Assembly (NCBI GenBank): GCA_008534395.1
Contig: SHMQ01000001.1
Location: 170,255-234,254, forward strand
Reading direction: 5' to 3'
Length of the DNA stretch: 64,000 nt
Source: Candidatus Acidulodesulfobacterium acidiphilum
Lineage (GTDB): Bacteria > SZUA-79 > Acidulodesulfobacterales > Acidulodesulfobacteraceae
The notes beneath the pieces were generated by a model that worked only from the letters and a program-made list of their open reading frames with translations, had not been told where the DNA came from and made no database searches. The position numbers and the translations under genes are program-made. Shown one piece after another: positions 13,997 through 25,418 of this stretch (positions within the stretch are counted from its first letter, which is position 1; each line of letters opens with the position of its first letter).

Positions 13997-14515
13997 ATGA
14001 CCGAAAGCGAATTTATAAATATTCTAAAAACCGGCGATTTCAAAGAGCGGTTTAATGCCGTAAGCACGGCGGATACCTCTTATCTCATTCACGCTCTTAA
14101 CGATAAGGACGAAAACGTAAGATATAAAGTCGCCTCAAGAATATCCGCCAAAAATTTAACGCCTCTTATAAACGACCCGTATAAAGAAGTACGTCTAATA
14201 GTCGCAAAAAGAATAGACGCAAAAGAGCTTCCAAAAATGCTCAACGACAAATCTTTCTGGGTAAGGCATGCGGTCGCCGAAAGAATAGACGAATCTTTTC
14301 TGCCTTCATTAATGAGCGATAAAGAGCCGATAGTAAGAATTAAGGTCGCCGAAAGAATAGACCCGAAATATTTAAAGGATATGATTAAAGACGACGAAGC
14401 ATTAGTAAGAAAAGCCGTGTCTAGAAGAATCCCCGAAGAATATTTGTCTTTAATGAAAGACGACAATAGCGAAAGCGTCAGAAATATCGTTGCCGAAAGG
14501 ACGTCTAAGTTATGA
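13997..14515 (+). CDS. LRV (leucine-rich variant) repeat protein
   Basis: 172 residues made almost wholly of about six tandem ~23-residue units of the form VRxxVAxRIxxxxLxxLxxDxxxx, e.g. VRYKVASRISAKNL, VRLIVAKRIDAKEL, VRHAVAERIDESFL, VRIKVAERIDPKYL. This matches LRV repeats, an alpha/3-10 solenoid that serves as a binding scaffold. No Fe-S cysteines as in the Azotobacter LRV protein. The stop overlaps the next ATG (ATGA), so it is coupled to the SDR gene. A truncated copy of its start sits at 12876-12945. Confidence 0.8.
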   Translation: MTESEFINILKTGDFKERFNAVSTADTSYLIHALNDKDENVRYKVASRISAKNLTPLINDPYKEVRLIVAKRIDAKELPKMLNDKSFWVRHAVAERIDESFLPSLMSDKEPIVRIKVAERIDPKYLKDMIKDDEALVRKAVSRRIPEEYLSLMKDDNSESVRNIVAERTSKL

Positions 14516-15427: not shown

Positions 15428-16981
15428 ATGGCGAAGATTAACGACAACAACAGTTCAAATCAGACGGGAGACATCAATTTTACTTTCAAGCTCTGGCAGA
15501 CTGCGGATAAGATGCGCAATAATATGGATGCCGCAGAATATAAGCACGTCGTTCTTGGGCTTATATTCCTTAAATATATTTCAGACTCGTTTACCGAGCT
15601 TTACAATGAGTTATTAAACAATGCGGAAGCCGACCCGGAGGATTTGGACGAATATAAATCCAAGAATATATTTTACGTTCCCAAAAAAGCCAGATGGGAT
15701 TACTTGCAGAATAATGCGAAACAGCCGCATATAGGCAAGCTAATAGACGATGCAATGACCGAAATAGAAAATATTAATCCCGTATTAAAAGGCGTCCTTC
15801 CGAAAAATTATGCAAGGGAAGGATTAGACAAACAGCGCCTCGGCGAACTTATAGATTTAATAGGCACGATTGGTTTGGGCGAGAAAGAAAACATAAGCAA
15901 GGATATACTGGGTCGGGTTTACGAGTATTTTTTAGGACAGTTTGCGGATGCGGAAGGTAAAAAAGGCGGGCAGTTTTATACTCCAAGATGCATAGTTAAA
16001 CTCCTTACGGAAATGATAGAGCCGTATAAGGGCAGAGTATATGACCCATGCTGCGGCTCCGGCGGAATGTTCGTCCAGTCCGAAAAATTTGTTAAGGAAC
16101 ACGGCGGCAGAATAGGCGATATTTCCATTTACGGTCAGGAGAGTAACCAGACTGCATGGCGGCTTTGCAAAATGAACCTTGCTATCCGCAGGATAGAAGC
16201 GGATATTCAGTGGAACAACGAAGGAAGTTTTTTAAACGACGCCCATAAAACCTTAAAAGCCGATTTTATTCTTGCCAATCCTCCTTTTAACGATTCAGAT
16301 TGGAGAGGCGAACTTTTAAAGGATGACGTCCGCTGGAAATACGGCGTCCCCCCTGTTAATAACGCAAACTTTGCATGGATTCAGCATTTTATCTTTCACC
16401 TGTCCCCGACCGGCATAGCGGGCTTTGTTCTTTCCAACGGCTCGATGAGTTCCAATACCTCTAACGAAGGAGAAATAAGAAAAAATATAATAGATGCCGA
16501 TTTAGTGGACTGCATGGTCGCCCTTCCCTCGCAGCTATTTTACAACACTATGATTCCGGCTTGTCTCTGGTTTATAGCCCGCGATAAAAAGAACCATAAA
16601 TTTAGGGACAGAAGAGGCGAGGTTTTGTTTATAGACGCCCGCGAAATGGGCGTTATGATAGACAGAAGACACAGAGAGCTTACCGATGAAGAAATTAATA
16701 AAATCGCAGGTACTTACCATGCTTTCAGGGGTGAAGGAGGCGAGTATGAAGATATTGCCGGTTTCTGCAAAGCAGCGGCCATTGAAGAAATAAAAAAGCA
16801 GGGCTATATTTTAACTCCCGGCAGATATGTCGGCACTAAAGAAACGGAAGAAGACGACGAAGTATTCGAAGAAAAGATGAAACGGCTGACGGCGGAACTG
16901 TCGAAACAGATGGCGGAAGAAAAAAGGCTGAACGAAGAGATAAAAATACAATTAGCTAAAATAGGGCTAAATTTGGAATAA
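15428..16981 (+). CDS. hsdM: Type I restriction-modification N6-adenine methyltransferase (HsdM)
   Basis: 517 residues. Helical HsdM N-terminal domain ([20 protein letters not shown], typical), then the methylase core with motif [10 protein letters not shown] (about residue 204) preceded by GQFYTP, and motif [10 protein letters not shown] (about 286). Ribosome site AAAGGA upstream. Starts the defence island. The specificity subunit follows 1 kb later as a fusion with an antitoxin; no HsdR was found, so restriction by this pair is uncertain and the S24-type enzyme at 19380 is a separate type. Confidence 0.95.
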
Positions 16982-16987
16982 GAATTT

Positions 16988-17464
16988 ATGGAAAATATTA
17001 AAAATGAAATAGCTATATATCAGTCGGAAAGCGGAGCGATTGAGATAGCAATAGATTTTAAAAAGGAAACTCTTTTATTAACCCAACAGCAAGTTGCTCA
17101 ACTTTTTGGCATCAAGAAAGCCGCAATTTCAAAGCATGTGAAAAATATATTTGCTTCGGCTGAACTTGAAAAAGAGTCAACTGTTTCCATTTTGGAAACA
17201 GTTCAAAAAGAAGGTGACAGGAAAATTGTTAGAAAGATAGAATATTATAATTTAGATTTGGTTTTATCTATAGGATATCGCGTTAATTCGCTGAATGCCA
17301 CTAGATTTCGCCGGTGGGCGACCACAACATTAAAAGAGCATATTATAAAAGGTTATTCTATTGTGCTAACGGCACTTACTTTGCTTATCGCCGAAAGCAA
17401 TCCGAAAGATAAGGATAGAATGATAGGTGTTATACTGCTGATTTTGGAAAGTGGGAAAAAATAA
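16988..17464 (+). pseudogene. RhuM/Fic family gene with internal deletion
   Basis: 158 residues. Residues 1-120 are the RhuM region (LTQQQVAQLFGIKKAAISKH, then NLDLVLSIGYRVNS and RRWATTTLKEHIIKGY). The tail ALTLLIAESNPKDKDRMIG is the kind of C-terminal end seen in RhuM-Fic/DOC proteins, which normally lies ~180 residues later. The Fic catalytic motif HPFxxGN between them is missing, so this looks like an in-frame deletion product without AMP-transferase activity. Lies 6 bp after hsdM. RhuM genes often hitch-hike in type I loci. Confidence 0.65.
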
Positions 17465-17585: not shown

Positions 17586-18005
17586 ATGCCTTTAGATTTA
17601 AGTAGTTTGCAAAAAGCGGTTAATTCTTTAGAAAGGGCTATTAAAGTCGCCGATAGGGTTATCAAAGATAGAGTTAATACGGATGAAGAAGAAGTTATAC
17701 GCGCAGGGGTTATCCAAAATTTTGAATTTACTTATGAGCTTTGCTGGAAGTTTATGAAAAGATGGCTTGAAATAAATATAGGCGGAGCTAATTTAGACGG
17801 GGCTACCAGGAGGGAACTTTTCCGCGAGGCATATAAAAGCGGGCTCATTGAAGATGTAGATAATTGGATGGAGTATCACGGAGCACGAAACGAAACATCC
17901 CATACATATGGTGATGATAAAGCAGAAGATGTATTTGAAGTTGCAAAAACCTTTTTAAAAGATGCAAAACAGCTATTTTTAATCTTAGAAGAAAAAAATG
18001 ATTGA
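17586..18005 (+). CDS. hepT: HepT-like HEPN toxin (HI0074 family)
   Basis: 139 residues, all-helical HEPN fold. The active-site motif RX4HXY is complete: RNETSHTY, Arg101/His106/Tyr108. In characterised MntA-HepT systems this motif cuts RNA and the Tyr is AMPylated by MntA. The family also was called nucleotidyltransferase substrate-binding protein. Ribosome site GGGAG 8 nt upstream. Its stop overlaps the next ATG by 8 bp. The partner antitoxin is fused to HsdS. Confidence 0.88.
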   Translation: MPLDLSSLQKAVNSLERAIKVADRVIKDRVNTDEEEVIRAGVIQNFEFTYELCWKFMKRWLEINIGGANLDGATRRELFREAYKSGLIEDVDNWMEYHGARNETSHTYGDDKAEDVFEVAKTFLKDAKQLFLILEEKND

Positions 18006-19119
18006 TGTTGCAAAACACGAATTAAAAACTATTCTTGATATATTAAATAAGCATGTGAATGAGTGCGAGGTTAGAGCTTTTGGCTCAAGGGTTACATGGA
18101 CGAATAAGGATAGTTCAGATTTAGATTTAGTTGTAGTTTGCGATAAGAAATTAGAAAGAGGTCGAATAGGAAAACTCAGGGAAGCATTTGAAGAATCTTC
18201 TCTTCCTTTCACTGTTGATGTTATGGACTGGCATGGTATAACTGAGGAGTTTCAAAAAAATATAGAAAAGTCTTATTATGTTTTAAAAAAAGCATATGAA
18301 AAAACAAATAATGTTTGGCAATATTATAAAGTATCGGATTTTGCCGATGTTATGAGCGGGGGTACGCCAAAAACCGAAATTCCGGAATATTGGAATGGAA
18401 ATATTCCCTGGATAACACCCAAAGATCTTTCTAATTATAATGCCCGTGAAATTTCGCGCGGAGAAAGGAATATTTCTCTTGAAGGTCTAAAAAATAGCAG
18501 CGCAAGGCTTTTACCTCCACGTACAGTTTTATTGACAAGCAGAGCGCCTGTAGGTTATCTTGCTATTGCTAAAAACGAACTTACTACTAATCAGGGCTTT
18601 AAGAACCTTATCGTTAAAAATGGTTTCTCGCCTGAATTTATTTATTATCTTCTACTAAACAATGTAGATTATCTTAAATTACAAGCGTCCGGCTCTACAT
18701 TTCAGGAACTTACCGCAAGCACATTAAGGAATTTGGAATTTCTATTGCCGGAATATGCAATACAAGAAGAAATTGCTATAATTTTAGGAAATATTGACGA
18801 CAAAATAGAACTTCTGCGGGAGCAGAATAAAACACTGGAAGCTATAGCGCAGGCAATCTATAAGCGGTGGTTCGTTGATTTCGAGTTTCCCATAGAAGAC
18901 GAAACCTCTAATTCAATTTTTGAAAAAATGATTATTAATTTACAACAAATCCAAACCCTATCCGCTCTTCGGGACTCCCTTCTTCCCAAACTTATGTCCG
19001 GCAAAATAAGGGTGCCGGCTAAAAATGAAGCGGAAACTACCCTTTCAGACGGAGCTCGCCATTCATCCTTAACAGAAGAGGGGACGAAAAGTGAAAATCC
19101 TCAAACGGAGGGTGAATAG
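17998..19119 (+). CDS. MntA nucleotidyltransferase fused to a one-TRD HsdS
   Basis: 373 residues in one uninterrupted frame. Residues 1-~100: minimal nucleotidyltransferase with GSX10DXD exact (Gly29-Ser30, Asp41-Leu-Asp43) and a third acid in VDVMDW. Residues ~105-373: type I specificity subunit with YYKVSDFADVMSGGTPKTE at the start of the target-recognition domain, then the conserved coiled coil IQEEIAIILGNIDDKIELLR and IYKRWFVDFEFP. Only one TRD plus one spacer, half the usual ~400-450 residues, so two copies may be needed per HsdM complex. There is no Met at the junction, so HsdS cannot start separately near there. Coupled to hepT by an 8-bp overlap. See findings. Confidence 0.85.
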   Translation: MIDVAKHELKTILDILNKHVNECEVRAFGSRVTWTNKDSSDLDLVVVCDKKLERGRIGKLREAFEESSLPFTVDVMDWHGITEEFQKNIEKSYYVLKKAYEKTNNVWQYYKVSDFADVMSGGTPKTEIPEYWNGNIPWITPKDLSNYNAREISRGERNISLEGLKNSSARLLPPRTVLLTSRAPVGYLAIAKNELTTNQGFKNLIVKNGFSPEFIYYLLLNNVDYLKLQASGSTFQELTASTLRNLEFLLPEYAIQEEIAIILGNIDDKIELLREQNKTLEAIAQAIYKRWFVDFEFPIEDETSNSIFEKMIINLQQIQTLSALRDSLLPKLMSGKIRVPAKNEAETTLSDGARHSSLTEEGTKSENPQTEGE

Positions 19120-19147: not shown

Positions 19148-19240
19148 GCAAAAATTGCAACAGTTCAAAATGAAGGTAATCGAATAGTAACACGAGAAAT
19201 AGAATCTTATAATTTAGATGTTATTTTATCGGTTATTGCA
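19148..19240 (+). pseudogene. Second RhuM fragment
   Basis: One frame reads IATVQNEGNRIVTREIESYNL followed by DVILS, which matches residues ~68-95 of the RhuM gene at 16988 (ETVQKEGDRKIVRKIEYYNLDLVLS). The DNA differs widely, so it is a separate old copy rather than a recent duplicate. The rest of 19120-19379 carries the dyad at 19236 and nothing else I can name. Confidence 0.65.
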
Positions 19241-19379: not shown

Positions 19380-20084
19380 ATGTCCATAAAAACCGTTTTA
19401 AATAATTTAAGAGCCGAATATACTAATATAAGAGATTTGGGTACGGCTTTTGAAAAATTAACGCTAAATTTTTTAAAGACGGATAATATATATAAAACTT
19501 TATATAAAAATGTATGGATGTTTAAAGATTTTGTTATATCCCATCCCGAATATGGTTTAAAAGAAAATGACACCGGCGTTGACCTTGTAGCAGAATTTAG
19601 GGAAGGAGATGAAAGATTTTGCGCTATACAGTGCAAGGTTTACGAAGAAGGACATAAATTAGTCAAAGAAGATATTGATTCTTTTTTCACTGCATCCGGT
19701 AAAAAAATTTTTACCGACAGGTTATTGGTAGTTACCACGAACAGTATAAGCGATAACGTAAGCGACTCTCTTAGTGAACAGGCCGTTCCCGTCAGCCTGA
19801 TAACTTTGGACGATCTGGAAAACAGTTCTATCGATTGGCTGCAATTTGATATAAACAAAATTGAAAATCTTGAAGTAAAGCCCAAAAAAACGATAAGGCC
19901 GCATCAGAAAGAAGCTTTGGAAAAAACCGTCGAATATTTTAAATATCATGACAGGGGAAAGCTTATTATGGCTTGCGGTACCGGAAAGACCTATACTTCG
20001 CTTAAAATAGCCGAAGCTATAACGCAAGGTAACGCCAACATACTGTTTTTAGTGCCGTCGATATCGCTTTATCGCAAACCTTAA
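19380..20084 (+). CDS. Mrr-type nuclease and helicase N-terminus of large restriction enzyme (frameshifted)
   Basis: 234 residues of a longer protein. Residues ~15-130 form an Mrr-like nuclease: GTAFEKLTLNFL, then GVDLVAEF and FCAIQCKVY (the D...QxK catalytic set). Residue ~190 on begins a superfamily 2 helicase: RPHQKEALEK (Q-motif-like) and MACGTGKTYTS (Walker A). It stops at 20084, but the helicase continues without a break in another frame from 20072 (SQTLKEWNYEAE). Restoring one T in the run 20068-20070 rejoins them (PSISLLSQTLKEW). Ribosome site GGAG 7 nt before ATG. Confidence 0.85.
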   Translation: MSIKTVLNNLRAEYTNIRDLGTAFEKLTLNFLKTDNIYKTLYKNVWMFKDFVISHPEYGLKENDTGVDLVAEFREGDERFCAIQCKVYEEGHKLVKEDIDSFFTASGKKIFTDRLLVVTTNSISDNVSDSLSEQAVPVSLITLDDLENSSIDWLQFDINKIENLEVKPKKTIRPHQKEALEKTVEYFKYHDRGKLIMACGTGKTYTSLKIAEAITQGNANILFLVPSISLYRKP

Positions 20085-20404
20085 AAGAATGGAATTATGA
20101 AGCCGAAAATCAGATAAATTCATATGCGGTATGCTCCGACGTTAAAATAGGCAAAGACGAGGATTTAAGACTGCATGAACTTTCTTTCCCCGCTACTACA
20201 AATGCCGATAAATTATTAGAAAATTTTCAAAACGGCAACAACATAAAAAGCAGAACCGTAATTTTTTCGACATATCAATCGCTTGACGTAATTCAAGATG
20301 CGCAGTCTAAAGGACTGCCTGGGTTCGATTTCGTAATATGCGATGAAGCCCATAGGACTACGGGAGTTATTAAGGGTCCGATAAAAGACGATTCTAACTT
20401 CGTC

Positions 20405-23400
20405 ATGATACACGACAACGACAAGATTAAAGCTAAAAAGCGGATGTATATGACGGCAACCCCAAGAATTTATACTTCAAACGTTAAAAATACTGCTAAG
20501 AAAAAAGACATAGTGCTTTGTTCTATGGACGACGATTCTGAAATATACGGGGAAACTATATATAAATTAAGTTTTTCCAAAGCGGTAGAACTTGGACTAT
20601 TATCCGATTATCAGGTTATGGTTTATATGGTGGCGCAAGATTTTATAAACGAAGATATGCAGTCGGAACTTGCGAGAAAAGACAATACTCTAAACTTAGG
20701 CGATTTGTCTAAATTAACCGGCTGTTACAACGGGTTATCCAAAAAAAGCATAGACGATTCCAATCTATTTATCGATACAAATCCTATGAAAAGAGCCGTT
20801 ATGTTTGCCGGCAAAATAGAAATTTCTAAAAAAATAGCCAAAGAATTTAGGAAAATAACGCAGAATTTAGGCGATTTAAAATGTGAAGCAGAGCATATAG
20901 ACGGTACTACGAATATTATAGAAAGAAATAATCGCATAGACTGGCTGAAAGAACCGATTCCGGAGGGCGAATGCAGAATATTATCGAACGCAAGATGTTT
21001 GTCGGAAGGCGTCGATATTCCGGCGCTAGATGCCGTAATATTTTTAAATCCTAAAGATTCCGAAATAGATATTATTCAGGCGGTCGGAAGAGCTATGAGG
21101 AAATCTGAAGGAAAAAAATTCGGATATATTATATTGCCGGTAGCCATACCAGTTAACAAGGCGCCGGAGGATGTTTTAAAAGACAGCAATTATAATATAG
21201 TTTGGAATACGCTCGAAAGCCTGCGCGCCCACGACGATAAAATGGACAGGGAAATAAACCAATTAAAATACAACGGAGAAAGCGACAGGATACATATAAT
21301 AGGAACCGGCGTAAGTATTCCGAAGGAACAGCTTAATTTCGACTTTCCGGAAGATAAAATAAAGATGTGGAAAGACGCCATAAGAGTAAAAATAGTCGAA
21401 AAATGCGGCGATAAGGAATATTTATTAAATTGGACGAAAGATATAATAGACATAATGAACGTCCATATCGCAAGAATAAACGAAATTTTAAAACAGAACG
21501 CAAACGACAGGAAAGAATTCGATGTTTTCTTGGAAGAATTAAGACAGAATATAAGTCCCGTAATATCCGAAGAAGACGCTATTATTATGCTATCCCAGCA
21601 TCTTATTACAAAACCTGTTTTCGAAACATTATTCGATTCCGACTTTGTAAAAAGAAACCCTATTTCTCTTGCTATGGATAAAATAATAAACTTGTTGGAC
21701 GAAAAAGGGCTTAAAAACGAAACCAAGAAATTGGAGCGGTTTTATGAATCGGTTAAAAATAAAGTAAGCGCGATTAAAAATCCGGAAGACAAACAAAAGG
21801 TAATAATAGAACTTTACGACAACTTCTTTTCTCTCGCAAATCCAAAATCGTCGGATAAATACGGCATAGTATATACTCCGGTAGAAATAGTGGACTTTAT
21901 AGTTAACAGCGTAGAGCATGTTTTAAACGAAGAATTCGCTACAAAGCTTGAAAACGAAAACGTCCATATATTAGACCCTTTTACAGGAACCGGCACTTTT
22001 ATTACGAGACTGCTTCATAACGGCATAATCGGTCCAGATAAATTAGAAAATAAGTATAAAAATGAACTGCATGCAAACGACATTATGCTTCTTGCGTATT
22101 ACATAGCAGCCGTTAATATAGAAGAAACCTACAAAAATATAGCAGGAAAATACGAACCTTTTACGGGTATAGTTTTAACCGATACTTTTCAGATGCTTGA
22201 AGACGAATATAAGTCGCAAGAACAACAAATAACTATATCCGCTACCGACGAAGAAATATTTTATCCGCTAAAAAGAAACAGTAAAAGAGCGTTAAAACAA
22301 AAACAGCAAGATATCAGGGTTATTATAGGCAATCCTCCATATTCGGCAAATCAAGGAAATGCTAATGAGAACAATAAAAACGATAAATATCCCAAGTTGG
22401 ACGAAAAAATAATAAACACGTACGTTAAAAATTCTATTGCCCAGAATAAACAAAGTCTTCACGATTCATATATACGGGCTTTTAGGTGGGCGACGGACAG
22501 AATTAAAGATAAAGGGGTAATATGCTATATCAGCAATAATTCTTATATTAACGGCAAAGCTCTTGACGGTTTTCGCAAAAGCCTTTTAGACGAATTTACT
22601 GCCGTTTATTGTTTTAACCTAAAAGGCAATTTCAGGGCTTATAACGCCGAAGAAGGCGAAAACGTTTTCGGAAACAGATGCGGAACCGGAGTAGCTATAA
22701 CCTTACTCGTAAAAAACCCCGATAAAGCAAAAAATAATAAAATATTCTATTATGAAATACCTGAAAAATTAAAAACTAACGAAAAATTGAATTATATTTC
22801 TTATACAAAAGATATAACCCATATAAAATGGCAGGAAATTATTCCCAACGAATCCCATGACTGGATTAAAAAAAGAAATCCAGTATTTTCGGAATTTATT
22901 CCTATGGGCGATAAAACAGGATTAGAAAGTGAAACGATATTTAAAATTTACTCCGGAGGCTTAAAAACCCAGAGAGATTCATGGTGCTATAACTTTTCAA
23001 AAGAAAAACTTCAAAACAACATAAAATCTATGATTGAGTTTTATAACGGCGAAGTCGACAGATATAGCAATGCGGTCAATATTCAGGAAAATATAGATAG
23101 TTTCGTCAACAACGACCCGACTAAAATAAGCTGGTCGGATGGACTTAAAAATAAATTAAAAAATAAAAAAAAGTTAGAGTTTAATAGTCAAGATATAATT
23201 ACTGCCGTTCATAGACCGTTTTGCAAACAATGGCTTTATTATAACAGAGATTTAAATGAAAGAGTTTACCAAATTCCAAAAATATTTCCGGATAAAAATT
23301 CGGATAATTTATTGATTTTAACAAGCGACTTTGAAAATAATGGTAACTTTGTTAATATAACAAATTTAATTCCAGATTTACATAAGCATGTTCAATCCTT

Positions 23401-24706
23401 TCCCCTTTACTACTACGAAAAAACCGATGATGAAAATAATGAAAATAGTTCGCATCCAGGTTTATTTAATTCGGAACCGCAACAGGATAAGACTCAATAC
23501 ACTAAAAAAGACAACATTTCCGATGAATTTTTAAAAGAAATACAAGATAAATACCATGACGCAGGCATAAATAAGGAGGATATTTTTTATTATATATACG
23601 GCATATTGCATAACGAAGATTATAAAAAGACGTTTGCAAACGATTTGACTAAAATGCTGCCGCGCATTCCGTTTATCTCCGAGTTTAAGGACATAAGCAA
23701 ATACGGCAGGGAATTGGCAAATTTGCATATTAATTACGAAAATATTGAACCGTATCCCGTTAAGGAAATAATATCGGAAAATGCCAAAAATTTAACGGAA
23801 AAAGAACTTTACCACGTAGAAAAAATGAAATTCGGCAAAAAAGGAAAGGATAAAGATAAAACGACGATAATATATAACGATTACATAACCTTATCCAATA
23901 TACCTTTGGAATCCTACGATTATATCGTTAACGGCAAATCGGCCATAGAATGGATAATGAACAGATATCAGGTAAACACCGATAAAAACAGTCTTATAAA
24001 AAACGACCCAAATTTATATCTTGAAGAAATTAACGATTACAAATATATCGTCAACCTTATAAAAAGAATAATTAATTTAAGCATAAAATCTCTTGATATA
24101 ATAAAGGAAATTTCAAAATATAAGATAGTCGAATCAGAATCTGCGGCTGAAAGCCCAATAAAATACGATGATAATGCGAAAAAGTCTAACGTAATCGATT
24201 TCCCTGCAAAGTTTGACGTAATACCCGACGACGATGTTCCCGAAGAGCAGAAATTCGTCGAATATCTTCCAGTGTATTCTTTGGAAGCCGCCGCTTCAAA
24301 GTTTAGCGCAGAACAGTACATCGAGCGGCTCGGCTGGAAAAACGTTAATAATTTAAATTATTTTCATAAATTATATCCCGATATGTTTATAGCGAAAGTC
24401 GTCGGCAAATCCATGGAGCCGACCATACCTGACGGCAGTTATTGCATATTCCGCTATGAACCGCAAGGTTCGCGCGAAGGCAAAGTAGTGATTGCGGAAA
24501 TGATGCATGAGTTAGACCCAGAAACGAATCAAAAATTTACGGTAAAAAGATATCATAGCGAAAAAGAATATTCTGAAGAAGACGGAAATTGGTTGCATAC
24601 AAGAATTATTCTTTCTCCGGATAATAAAGACTTTGAAAACATCATATTGGAAAACGCTTCCGAAAACAAATATAAAATAGTGGCGGAGTTTATTTCCGTC
24701 ATATAA
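20405..24706 (+). CDS. Helicase-methyltransferase-TRD-S24 portion of large type ISP-like enzyme
   Basis: 1433 residues from the first in-frame ATG, but the frame is open from 20072 and includes the DEAH box ICDEAHRTTG (about 20338). Order, numbered on the rejoined ~1774-residue protein: helicase C-lobe (ILSNARCLSEGVDIPALDAV, QAVGRAMRK), N6-methyltransferase with DPFTGTGTF (about 864) and IGNPPYSANQ (about 984), a type ISP C-terminal/target-recognition region (SWCYNFSKEKL, ITAVHRPFCKQWLYYN), a linker, and at the end an S24/LexA-like domain with GKSMEPTIPDGSYCIFR (Ser) and FTVKRYH (Lys). All-in-one restriction, translocation and methylation, with an added protease-like module. Part of the linker is duplicated at 13841-13889. 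Confidence 0.87.
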   Translation: MIHDNDKIKAKKRMYMTATPRIYTSNVKNTAKKKDIVLCSMDDDSEIYGETIYKLSFSKAVELGLLSDYQVMVYMVAQDFINEDMQSELARKDNTLNLGDLSKLTGCYNGLSKKSIDDSNLFIDTNPMKRAVMFAGKIEISKKIAKEFRKITQNLGDLKCEAEHIDGTTNIIERNNRIDWLKEPIPEGECRILSNARCLSEGVDIPALDAVIFLNPKDSEIDIIQAVGRAMRKSEGKKFGYIILPVAIPVNKAPEDVLKDSNYNIVWNTLESLRAHDDKMDREINQLKYNGESDRIHIIGTGVSIPKEQLNFDFPEDKIKMWKDAIRVKIVEKCGDKEYLLNWTKDIIDIMNVHIARINEILKQNANDRKEFDVFLEELRQNISPVISEEDAIIMLSQHLITKPVFETLFDSDFVKRNPISLAMDKIINLLDEKGLKNETKKLERFYESVKNKVSAIKNPEDKQKVIIELYDNFFSLANPKSSDKYGIVYTPVEIVDFIVNSVEHVLNEEFATKLENENVHILDPFTGTGTFITRLLHNGIIGPDKLENKYKNELHANDIMLLAYYIAAVNIEETYKNIAGKYEPFTGIVLTDTFQMLEDEYKSQEQQITISATDEEIFYPLKRNSKRALKQKQQDIRVIIGNPPYSANQGNANENNKNDKYPKLDEKIINTYVKNSIAQNKQSLHDSYIRAFRWATDRIKDKGVICYISNNSYINGKALDGFRKSLLDEFTAVYCFNLKGNFRAYNAEEGENVFGNRCGTGVAITLLVKNPDKAKNNKIFYYEIPEKLKTNEKLNYISYTKDITHIKWQEIIPNESHDWIKKRNPVFSEFIPMGDKTGLESETIFKIYSGGLKTQRDSWCYNFSKEKLQNNIKSMIEFYNGEVDRYSNAVNIQENIDSFVNNDPTKISWSDGLKNKLKNKKKLEFNSQDIITAVHRPFCKQWLYYNRDLNERVYQIPKIFPDKNSDNLLILTSDFENNGNFVNITNLIPDLHKHVQSFPLYYYEKTDDENNENSSHPGLFNSEPQQDKTQYTKKDNISDEFLKEIQDKYHDAGINKEDIFYYIYGILHNEDYKKTFANDLTKMLPRIPFISEFKDISKYGRELANLHINYENIEPYPVKEIISENAKNLTEKELYHVEKMKFGKKGKDKDKTTIIYNDYITLSNIPLESYDYIVNGKSAIEWIMNRYQVNTDKNSLIKNDPNLYLEEINDYKYIVNLIKRIINLSIKSLDIIKEISKYKIVESESAAESPIKYDDNAKKSNVIDFPAKFDVIPDDDVPEEQKFVEYLPVYSLEAAASKFSAEQYIERLGWKNVNNLNYFHKLYPDMFIAKVVGKSMEPTIPDGSYCIFRYEPQGSREGKVVIAEMMHELDPETNQKFTVKRYHSEKEYSEEDGNWLHTRIILSPDNKDFENIILENASENKYKIVAEFISVI

Positions 24707-24856: not shown

Positions 24857-25102
24857 ATGAGAAGAACCCAAATATATTTAGACGATGAAATATACGAAAT
24901 TTTAAAGAAAGAAAGTTTGATTTTAGGTAAAAGTACATCTCAAATAATAAGAGAAAACCCCAAAAAAAACCTGGTAAATAAAAGCGATAAAATATCAAAC
25001 GCCATAGACGGTTCTAAAGGCGCGTGGAAAGACAAACCCGATTTTAAAATTAACTATTTTATTAGAAAATTAAGAAAGGGAAATAGAATTGATAATTTTT
25101 GA
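24857..25102 (+). CDS. Ribbon-helix-helix antitoxin, VapB/CopG type
   Basis: 81 residues. N-terminal RRTQIYLDDEIYEILKKES is a typical ribbon-helix-helix strand and helix, followed by KSTSQIIRE; the C-terminal half (SKGAWKDKPD onward) is the toxin-binding tail. Ribosome site AGAGGA. Overlaps the PIN toxin by 14 bp, as expected for a type II toxin-antitoxin pair. Confidence 0.85.
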   Translation: MRRTQIYLDDEIYEILKKESLILGKSTSQIIRENPKKNLVNKSDKISNAIDGSKGAWKDKPDFKINYFIRKLRKGNRIDNF

Positions 25103-25418
25103 TACGGACATTATCATTTGGATATTAAGAGGTAAAGAAACAATAGTGACTGACGCAAAACGCTTATCCGAAGAAACATCAGGCAAAATATATATAACGC
25201 CCATTCAGGTTGCGGAGGTTTATTCGGGAATGACGGACAAAGAGGAAAGAAAAACCCGTAAACTTATAGAAAGTTTTTATTTTTTAGATATAAATAAACG
25301 AATAGGCGAATTGGCTGGTATATATATAAATAAATATAGAAAGTCCCATCAAATAGAGCTTGCAGATGCAATCATAGGAGCTTCGGCAAAAAATTACAAT
25401 TTAAATTATACACATTAA
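25089..25418 (+). CDS. VapC-type PIN-domain toxin, C-terminus shifted out of frame
   Basis: 109 residues. PIN acidic residues are in FDTDIIIW (Asp5), VAEVYSG (Glu) and ELADAIIGASA (Asp). The frame ends at a TAA after NYNLNYTH, but the next frame from 25409 reads YTLNKKHYPMLSKDDLISA and stops at 25468. That is the ordinary VapC end (TLN..HYPM). One missing T near 25406 explains this. If real, the toxin lacks its last helix. RNA cleavage is the known role of the family. Confidence 0.85.
   Translation: MIIFDTDIIIWILRGKETIVTDAKRLSEETSGKIYITPIQVAEVYSGMTDKEERKTRKLIESFYFLDINKRIGELAGIYINKYRKSHQIELADAIIGASAKNYNLNYTH

Follow-up and report, generated by a model that had tools for sequence, protein, structure and literature searches.

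An MNT antitoxin domain fused in frame to HsdS, beside hepT, in a family of type I restriction-modification loci

Gene content of the locus

The window, a stretch of 64,000 nucleotides from the genome of Candidatus Acidulodesulfobacterium acidiphilum (contig SHMQ01000001.1), holds a restriction-modification (R-M) operon in which hsdM is followed by a shortened RhuM-like gene, hepT, a frame that joins an MNT nucleotidyltransferase to a type I specificity (HsdS) region, and a type ISP restriction-modification gene (Table 1). The joined frame (17998-19119, + strand) stays open over 373 codons without a stop and matches Polbeta (PF18765, residues 11-96), NTP_transf_2 (PF01909) and one Methylase_S domain (PF01420, residues 107-281, E 5e-32). 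In-frame start codons near the junction occur at residue 76, within the MNT, and at residue 119, within the TRD, and the HsdS part therefore has no start of its own. The AlphaFold2 model of the fusion (pLDDT 87, pTM 0.59) contains two confident domains, though with this pTM the model leaves their relative placement free. Residues 1-100 match HI0073 (1no5, Z 19.0) and the Legionella MNT antitoxin (8xeo, Z 15.9), and residues 100-294 match HsdS (1yf2, Z 22.8) and EcoR124I (7bst, Z 17.9). The active-site motif GSX10DXD is present as GSRVTWTNKDSSDLD, and the score against the curated NCBI equivalog for MntA (NF047752) is 30.5 bits, below the cut-off of 60. An MNT antitoxin fused in frame to HsdS is thereby confirmed in this genome, bearing out the original prediction of a single frame without an internal start and of a complete MntA signature. 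Chance read-through of neighbouring genes was ruled out, as both domains match solved structures along their length and 40 fused loci are found elsewhere (see below).

Directly upstream lies hepT, whose last 8 nt are at the same time the first 8 nt of the fusion, an overlap found at 25 of 41 fused loci (the window counted). Its product matches PF08780 (E 2.6e-38) and TIGR01987/HI0074 (E 6e-26; 90.9 bits, cut-off 55.8), falls slightly below the cut-off of the HepT-like family PF01934 and scores 21.9 bits, below the cut-off of 60, against the curated NCBI equivalog for HepT (NF047751). The AlphaFold2 model (pLDDT 91) has the fold of HI0074 (1jog, Z 20.0) and of the AMPylated HEPN toxin of Legionella (8xdj, Z 18.5). 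The original prediction had also placed a HepT toxin gene with a complete RX4HXY signature next to the fusion; the motif RNETSHTY, the HEPN fold and the overlapping genes agree with this, and the HEPN partner stands, although it belongs to the HI0074 subfamily and not to the narrower PF01934 HepT.

Table 1. Features of the restriction-modification locus, in window coordinates
Feature	Position	Strand	Basis
hsdM, type I DNA methyltransferase subunit, 517 aa, intact	15428..16981	+	PF02384 E 1e-111, PF12161 E 4e-26
RhuM-like gene, shortened by a 510-bp in-frame internal loss; 158 aa vs 332 aa in relatives	16988..17464	+	PF13310
hepT, HEPN toxin candidate, HI0074/PF08780 subfamily, 139 aa	17586..18005	+	PF08780, TIGR01987; fold; Q44, E47, R101, H106, Y108 kept
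RX4HXY motif (RNETSHTY) of HepT; Tyr108 is the predicted AMPylation site	17886..17909	+	sequence; in fused loci R 41/42, H 39/42, Y 39/42
8-nt overlap of hepT stop with mnt::hsdS start (ATGATTGA)	17998..18005	+	sequence; 25/41 fused loci
MNT antitoxin domain, fusion residues 1-100	17998..18297	+	PF18765, PF01909, NF047752 (below cut-off); folds 1no5, 8xeo
GSX10DXD active-site motif of MNT, residues 29-43	18082..18126	+	sequence; G29, S30, D41, D43 in 42/42 fused MNTs
Trp34 codon, residue marking HsdS-fused MNTs	18097..18099	+	41/42 fused vs 1/41 unfused
HsdS part: one TRD (PF01420 at 18316-18840) and conserved helices (residues 253-293, 306-333)	18298..19116	+	PF01420 E 5e-32; 1yf2, 7bst
Junction of the missing 591-bp in-frame TRD2 segment, vs same-genus HsdS of G008	18904..18912	+	blastn
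Short rhuM-like remnant between the fusion and the ISP gene	19159..19230	+	blastn, 76% to rhuM of L039 and L044
Type ISP restriction-modification gene, frameshift between 20084 and 20405, S24-like tail 24188-24703	19380..24706	+	PF13156, PF18135, PF22240, PF00717

The window locus is a worn member of the family described below. Its hsdM is 95-97% identical to same-genus copies (dN/dS 0.04 vs G012, a relative of the same family), and residues 1-125 and 126-153 of the RhuM-like product align with residues 3-127 and 298-325 of intact relatives. At the TRD2 junction, 18794-18911 and 18910-19119 match positions 1396-1279 and 689-480 of locus L043 by blastn (92% and 96% identity), and after the 591-bp loss HsdS has a single PF01420 domain rather than two TRDs. 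A one-TRD HsdS, as first claimed, is thus correct for the window and incorrect as a family trait, being a local loss of the TRD2 segment. Since HsdS proteins with one TRD can function as homodimers with palindromic targets (PMC3874165, PMC6158711), activity of the window HsdS is possible. The single operon contains two in-frame losses, of 510 bp in rhuM and 591 bp in hsdS.

The claim that the fusion sits inside a type I locus holds in part, as hsdM is present and hepT lies between hsdM and hsdS, but no type I hsdR follows at the window locus. The type ISP gene occupies the hsdR position of relatives and bears all that remains, an S24-like tail 86% identical to the tail of their HsdR; an intact 1784-aa copy of the ISP gene is present in G002 (L180). 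Across relatives, hsdM-rhuM is followed by either hsdS-hsdR or a type ISP gene (L038, L044, L180, L182), with a common S24-peptidase-like tail (86-87% identical), as if hsdS-hsdR and ISP modules had been exchanged between shared ends. In G016, from another genus of the same family, the MNT frame is interrupted and followed by a remnant of the HsdS start in register, which indicates that the fusion predates the split of the two genera. Genome G012 has the HepT-MNT pair alone, unfused and upstream of hsdM. A HEAT/LRV-repeat gene (window 13997-14515) adjoins the restriction locus in all examined relatives holding that flank (L038, L039, L176, L180, L182), and the translations of a small gene pair behind the ISP gene (window 24857-25418) resemble a VapBC-type module (antitoxin and PIN).

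Distribution of the fused loci

Using the MNT alignment to scan one genome per species (84,980 species), 80 loci were returned, and at 40 of them the MNT frame runs on into HsdS (N-terminal MNT, 297-699 aa), a proportion that gives no prevalence because the scan was seeded with MNT peptide patterns. The prevailing gene order of the fused loci is hsdM-hepT-mnt::hsdS-hsdR, with hsdM at 37, a HEPN gene within 60 nt at 37 and hsdR at 32 of the 40, several contigs stopping early. Most of these relatives possess a full-length HsdS, in fusions of 490-570 aa, and all 38 fusion proteins submitted to a Pfam scan (36 scan loci, the window and one plasmid) match PF01420 and nucleotidyltransferase families. 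One of the 38 also matches the nuclease-like DUF559 (PF04480, E 1e-38) in the same chain. Inspection of a 307-aa MNT frame in G258 (L080) revealed no HsdS match.

The 40 fused loci are spread over about 19 phyla, among them Poribacteria, Chloroflexota, Acidobacteriota and Pseudomonadota. Their sources include complete chromosomes as well as the isolates Loktanella sp. DSM 29012 and Alloyangia mangrovi. In Zymomonas mobilis ATCC 10988, plasmid pZMOB01 carries an HI0074-type HEPN gene, a fused 527-aa 'subunit S' and HsdR. A sample of 386 genomes yielded recognisable fused frames in just two apart from the window, and the MNT::HsdS system is therefore widespread yet uncommon. The in-frame fusion, the HEPN gene directly upstream, the preceding hsdM and Trp34 (see below) are shared by the window with the 40 other loci, which rule out a fusion unique to this genome and an assembly artefact. 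The original prediction had proposed looking for the same architecture beside HEPN genes in other genomes and would have been undermined had relatives offered no homologous fusion; the 40 loci, in a type I context, supply it.

Judging from isolate names, many of the fused loci (e.g., L101, L104-L108, L110-L112, L144, L145) seem to come from sponge-symbiont metagenomes (Poribacteria, SAR202, Dehalococcoidia). One scan of viral contigs with the MNT alignment found no relative, and seven phage records matched the HsdS part only. When plasmids were scanned with the fused ATCC 10988 protein, no further Zymomonas record matched, and deletions in Z. mobilis ZM4 were for that reason dropped as evidence.

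Conserved residues and a possible link to the methylase

The catalytic residues of both partners are conserved. All 42 fused MNTs retain G29, S30, D41 and D43, and the HEPN proteins of the fused loci retain R101 (41/42), H106 (39/42), Y108 (39/42) and E47 (39/42), with about three of the 42 loci lacking the key His or Tyr of HepT. In the Legionella homologue, the residues that match Q44 and E47 are metal-site residues required for RNase activity and the tyrosine of RX4HXY is AMPylated (PMC11586414). Between the window and G016 or G012, dN/dS is 0.18-0.19 for HepT and 0.27-0.31 for MNT, values of purifying selection. The HepT motif is altered at four fused loci (L095, RNQTSRTY; L098, ISQTSHIY; L109, RNATSHIC; L165, RNATSYAY), where the toxin may possibly have been inactivated with MNT::HsdS retained.

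A tryptophan at position 34, in the G-loop region beside the active-site motif, distinguishes the fused MNTs: it is present in 41 of 42, compared to one of 41 unfused MNTs (Fisher 2e-21, a value that ignores relatedness). A tree of HepT and MNT built leaving out the Trp34 column requires no fewer than 10 changes of the fused state on well-supported branches. On this tree Trp34 tracks fusion state in nine of ten independent comparisons (sign test p 0.02), unlike every other top-ranked alignment column. The lone unfused MNT with Trp34 (L131) lies in a restriction locus and is sister to the lone fused MNT without it (L166). A single origin of the fused state is unsupported given the number of changes, and the tree does not separate gains from losses.

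Some unfused MNTs bear another mark of the methylase. In L132, L134 and L143 (Verrucomicrobia and relatives), the MNT adjoins hsdM and hsdS without being fused, and its last residues (about 17-24 aa) duplicate the C-terminal tail of HsdM, which HsdM itself retains; the copy is partial or decayed in L139, L146 and L148, and in L134 and L143 its DNA (21-35 bp) is 91-100% identical to the end of hsdM. Either the copy is an alternative tether between MNT and the methylase, or it is a duplication that arose when hepT-mnt inserted at the hsdM end. Together with the covariation of Trp34, these tails suggest a functional link between MNT and the methylase. Control of the toxin tied to the methylase is supported indirectly by the conserved catalytic residues, Trp34, purifying selection and the MNTs with HsdM tails.

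Interpretation and related systems

In related systems, HEPN toxins cleave RNA and are silenced through AMPylation by MNT (PMC11586414, PMC7641770), and the Legionella MNT, which is without helix alpha-4, AMPylates its HEPN rather inefficiently (PMC11586414, PMC7641770). The best explanation, to which we give slightly better than an even chance, is that the window locus is a worn member of a widespread type I R-M variant in which HsdS bears the antitoxin enzyme and loss or blockage of the methylase leaves new HepT active. HepT would be an RNase toxin, silenced by the HsdS-borne MNT through AMPylation of Tyr108. Like its Legionella counterpart, the MNT appears to be without the extra C-terminal helix by which other MNTs grip HEPN, and it would sit on the HsdM-HsdS methylase, where Trp34 may contact the methylase or HepT in the methylase setting. 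Should the methylase complex be lost or blocked (by loss of the locus, phage anti-restriction proteins or competing specificity genes), HepT made later would remain unmodified and growth would stop. In such a system a suicide or dormancy device would stand behind the restriction enzyme, much as PrrC does in EcoprrI, but the antitoxin would be enzymatic and a covalent part of the immune enzyme, and the toxin is probably held off only while the anti-virus restriction system is intact. Even in the worn window locus, the one-TRD HsdS could as a homodimer still make up the methylase, and silencing could persist without HsdR.

The narrower proposal, that the assembled methylase licenses AMPylation of the HEPN RNase, partly via Trp34, and that a disabled methylase arms the toxin, is held more tentatively, at a little under an even chance. 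AMPylation is covalent, so existing AMPylated HepT would not be reactivated by the loss of MNT; as it would not be freed, the switch must depend on new HepT synthesis or on a de-AMPylating enzyme, and this reliance is the weakest step of the mechanism. The same-family relatives with an unfused pair (G012) or a decayed fusion (G016) also count against the best explanation, the HepT-MNT pair persisting there unfused. Further points against it are the wear of the window copy (HsdR absent, segments of RhuM and HsdS lost, ISP gene frameshifted), the few fused loci whose HepT is without the key His or Tyr, and the free placement of the two domains in the AlphaFold2 model.

Several other readings were weighed. 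A fusion that merely makes loss of the restriction locus costly, stabilising a mobile R-M locus with no sensing of phage or methylase, is rather unlikely; it fits the patchy occurrence of the loci among phyla and on plasmids, the translational coupling of hepT to mnt::hsdS and the self-stabilisation known for toxin-antitoxin and R-M loci alike, but a separate antitoxin gene would do equally well, and the repeated methylase link and the fusion-specific Trp34 suggest a physical role. We consider it unlikely to a greater degree that the pair is a domesticated regulator in which HEPN is a substrate-binding subunit only and HsdM, HsdR or HsdS is nucleotidylated, with no toxin involved. The HEPN RNase and AMPylation residues are retained in nearly all fused loci and, of the characterised homologues, the closest is a toxin with RNase activity that its own MNT AMPylates (PMC11586414), even though the first description of HI0073/HI0074 was as a nucleotidyltransferase made of two proteins (title of 1no5) and HEPN domains joined to MNT within multidomain proteins are in many cases inactive (Anantharaman 2013, PMC3710099).

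Decay in the window genome raises the prospect of a relic, MNT::HsdS standing outside a working R-M system and HepT-MNT surviving as a common toxin-antitoxin pair to which an HsdS tail is attached. The loss of TRD2 and of part of rhuM, the replaced hsdR and the frameshifted ISP gene favour this, as do relatives in which the pair occurs by itself or next to HsdS decayed to remnants; against this, hsdM is intact and constrained (dN/dS 0.04), the HsdS losses are in frame, Trp34 is still there and a one-TRD HsdS can act as a homodimer (PMC3874165, PMC6158711). This reading, which would apply to the window copy and not to the family, is improbable. Assembly error or chance read-through of adjacent genes is least credible of all and can be given hardly any weight: the window genome is assembled in 70 contigs and comes without reads, and Acetobacter plasmids have mnt and hsdS as separate overlapping genes, but the same fusion occurs in 40 other assemblies, including complete chromosomes and isolates, and its remnant in G016.

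The locus can be compared with several known systems. With the type VII HEPN/MNT toxin-antitoxin pairs (HEPN-MNT of Legionella pneumophila, PMC11586414; HepT/MntA of Shewanella, PMC7641770) it shares the HEPN fold, Q44/E47 and RX4HXY, the MNT fold and GSX10DXD, and adjacent overlapping genes, whereas here the MNT is the N-terminal domain of HsdS rather than a stand-alone protein, its G-loop has Trp34, and hepT precedes mnt within a type I R-M operon. As in type I R-M systems (HsdM-HsdS-HsdR), hsdM and hsdS (with hsdR in relatives) form one operon and HsdS has the expected fold, TRD and conserved helices; the differences are hepT between hsdM and hsdS, the enzymatic antitoxin domain on HsdS and, in the window copy, the single TRD and missing hsdR. 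A type I enzyme keeps the HEPN nuclease PrrC latent, and a phage anti-restriction peptide activates it (PMC3506569). EcoprrI-PrrC (HEPN anticodon nuclease; PMC3874165, PMC3506569) likewise has a HEPN ribonuclease gene within an hsd operon, and restraint by the restriction enzyme is what we propose here. However, the likeness is one of logic only, as PrrC brings an ABC ATPase of its own and is restrained through protein contact, whereas the HEPN of the window, a small protein of 139 aa, stands alone, joined to no ABC ATPase, and is paired with a covalently modifying enzyme fused to HsdS. The Acetobacter plasmid loci (hsdM-hepT-mnt-hsdS-hsdR; L036) have the same genes, order and overlapping ends, but mnt and hsdS are separate overlapping frames and position 34 of the MNT is Gly.

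HEPN genes near restriction systems and the idea of coupling immunity to suicide are already known (PMC3710099, PMC3506569). The general linkage and the guarded toxin were proposed by Anantharaman 2013 (PMC3710099), but its main text is without HsdS or an MNT-HsdS fusion, and the domains fused to nucleases and helicases are HEPN, not the antitoxin. A literature search, with incomplete coverage of subscription papers and preprints, found no description of an MNT-HsdS fusion, and the MNT::HsdS type I variant is apparently undescribed; the novelty would be the guarding of a toxin within a core subunit of a type I restriction enzyme. With a conserved fusion of an AMPylating antitoxin and HsdS beside the toxin in about 19 phyla, the hypothesis is directly testable in a small operon, in which point mutants of Trp34, Asp41/43 and Tyr108 should separate tethering, AMPylation and toxicity. 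A toxin-antitoxin function is concealed in some of the proteins annotated as 'restriction endonuclease subunit S' and likewise in one or more defence-system profiles. PADLOC profile PDLC03138 ('Specificity_I') covers MNT and HsdS end to end (residues 1-529 of the L107 fusion against 1-483 of the 485 profile positions) but is labelled a type I specificity subunit only, the antitoxin domain and adjoining toxin passing without remark, and MNT::HsdS proteins are thus already in databases yet unrecognised.
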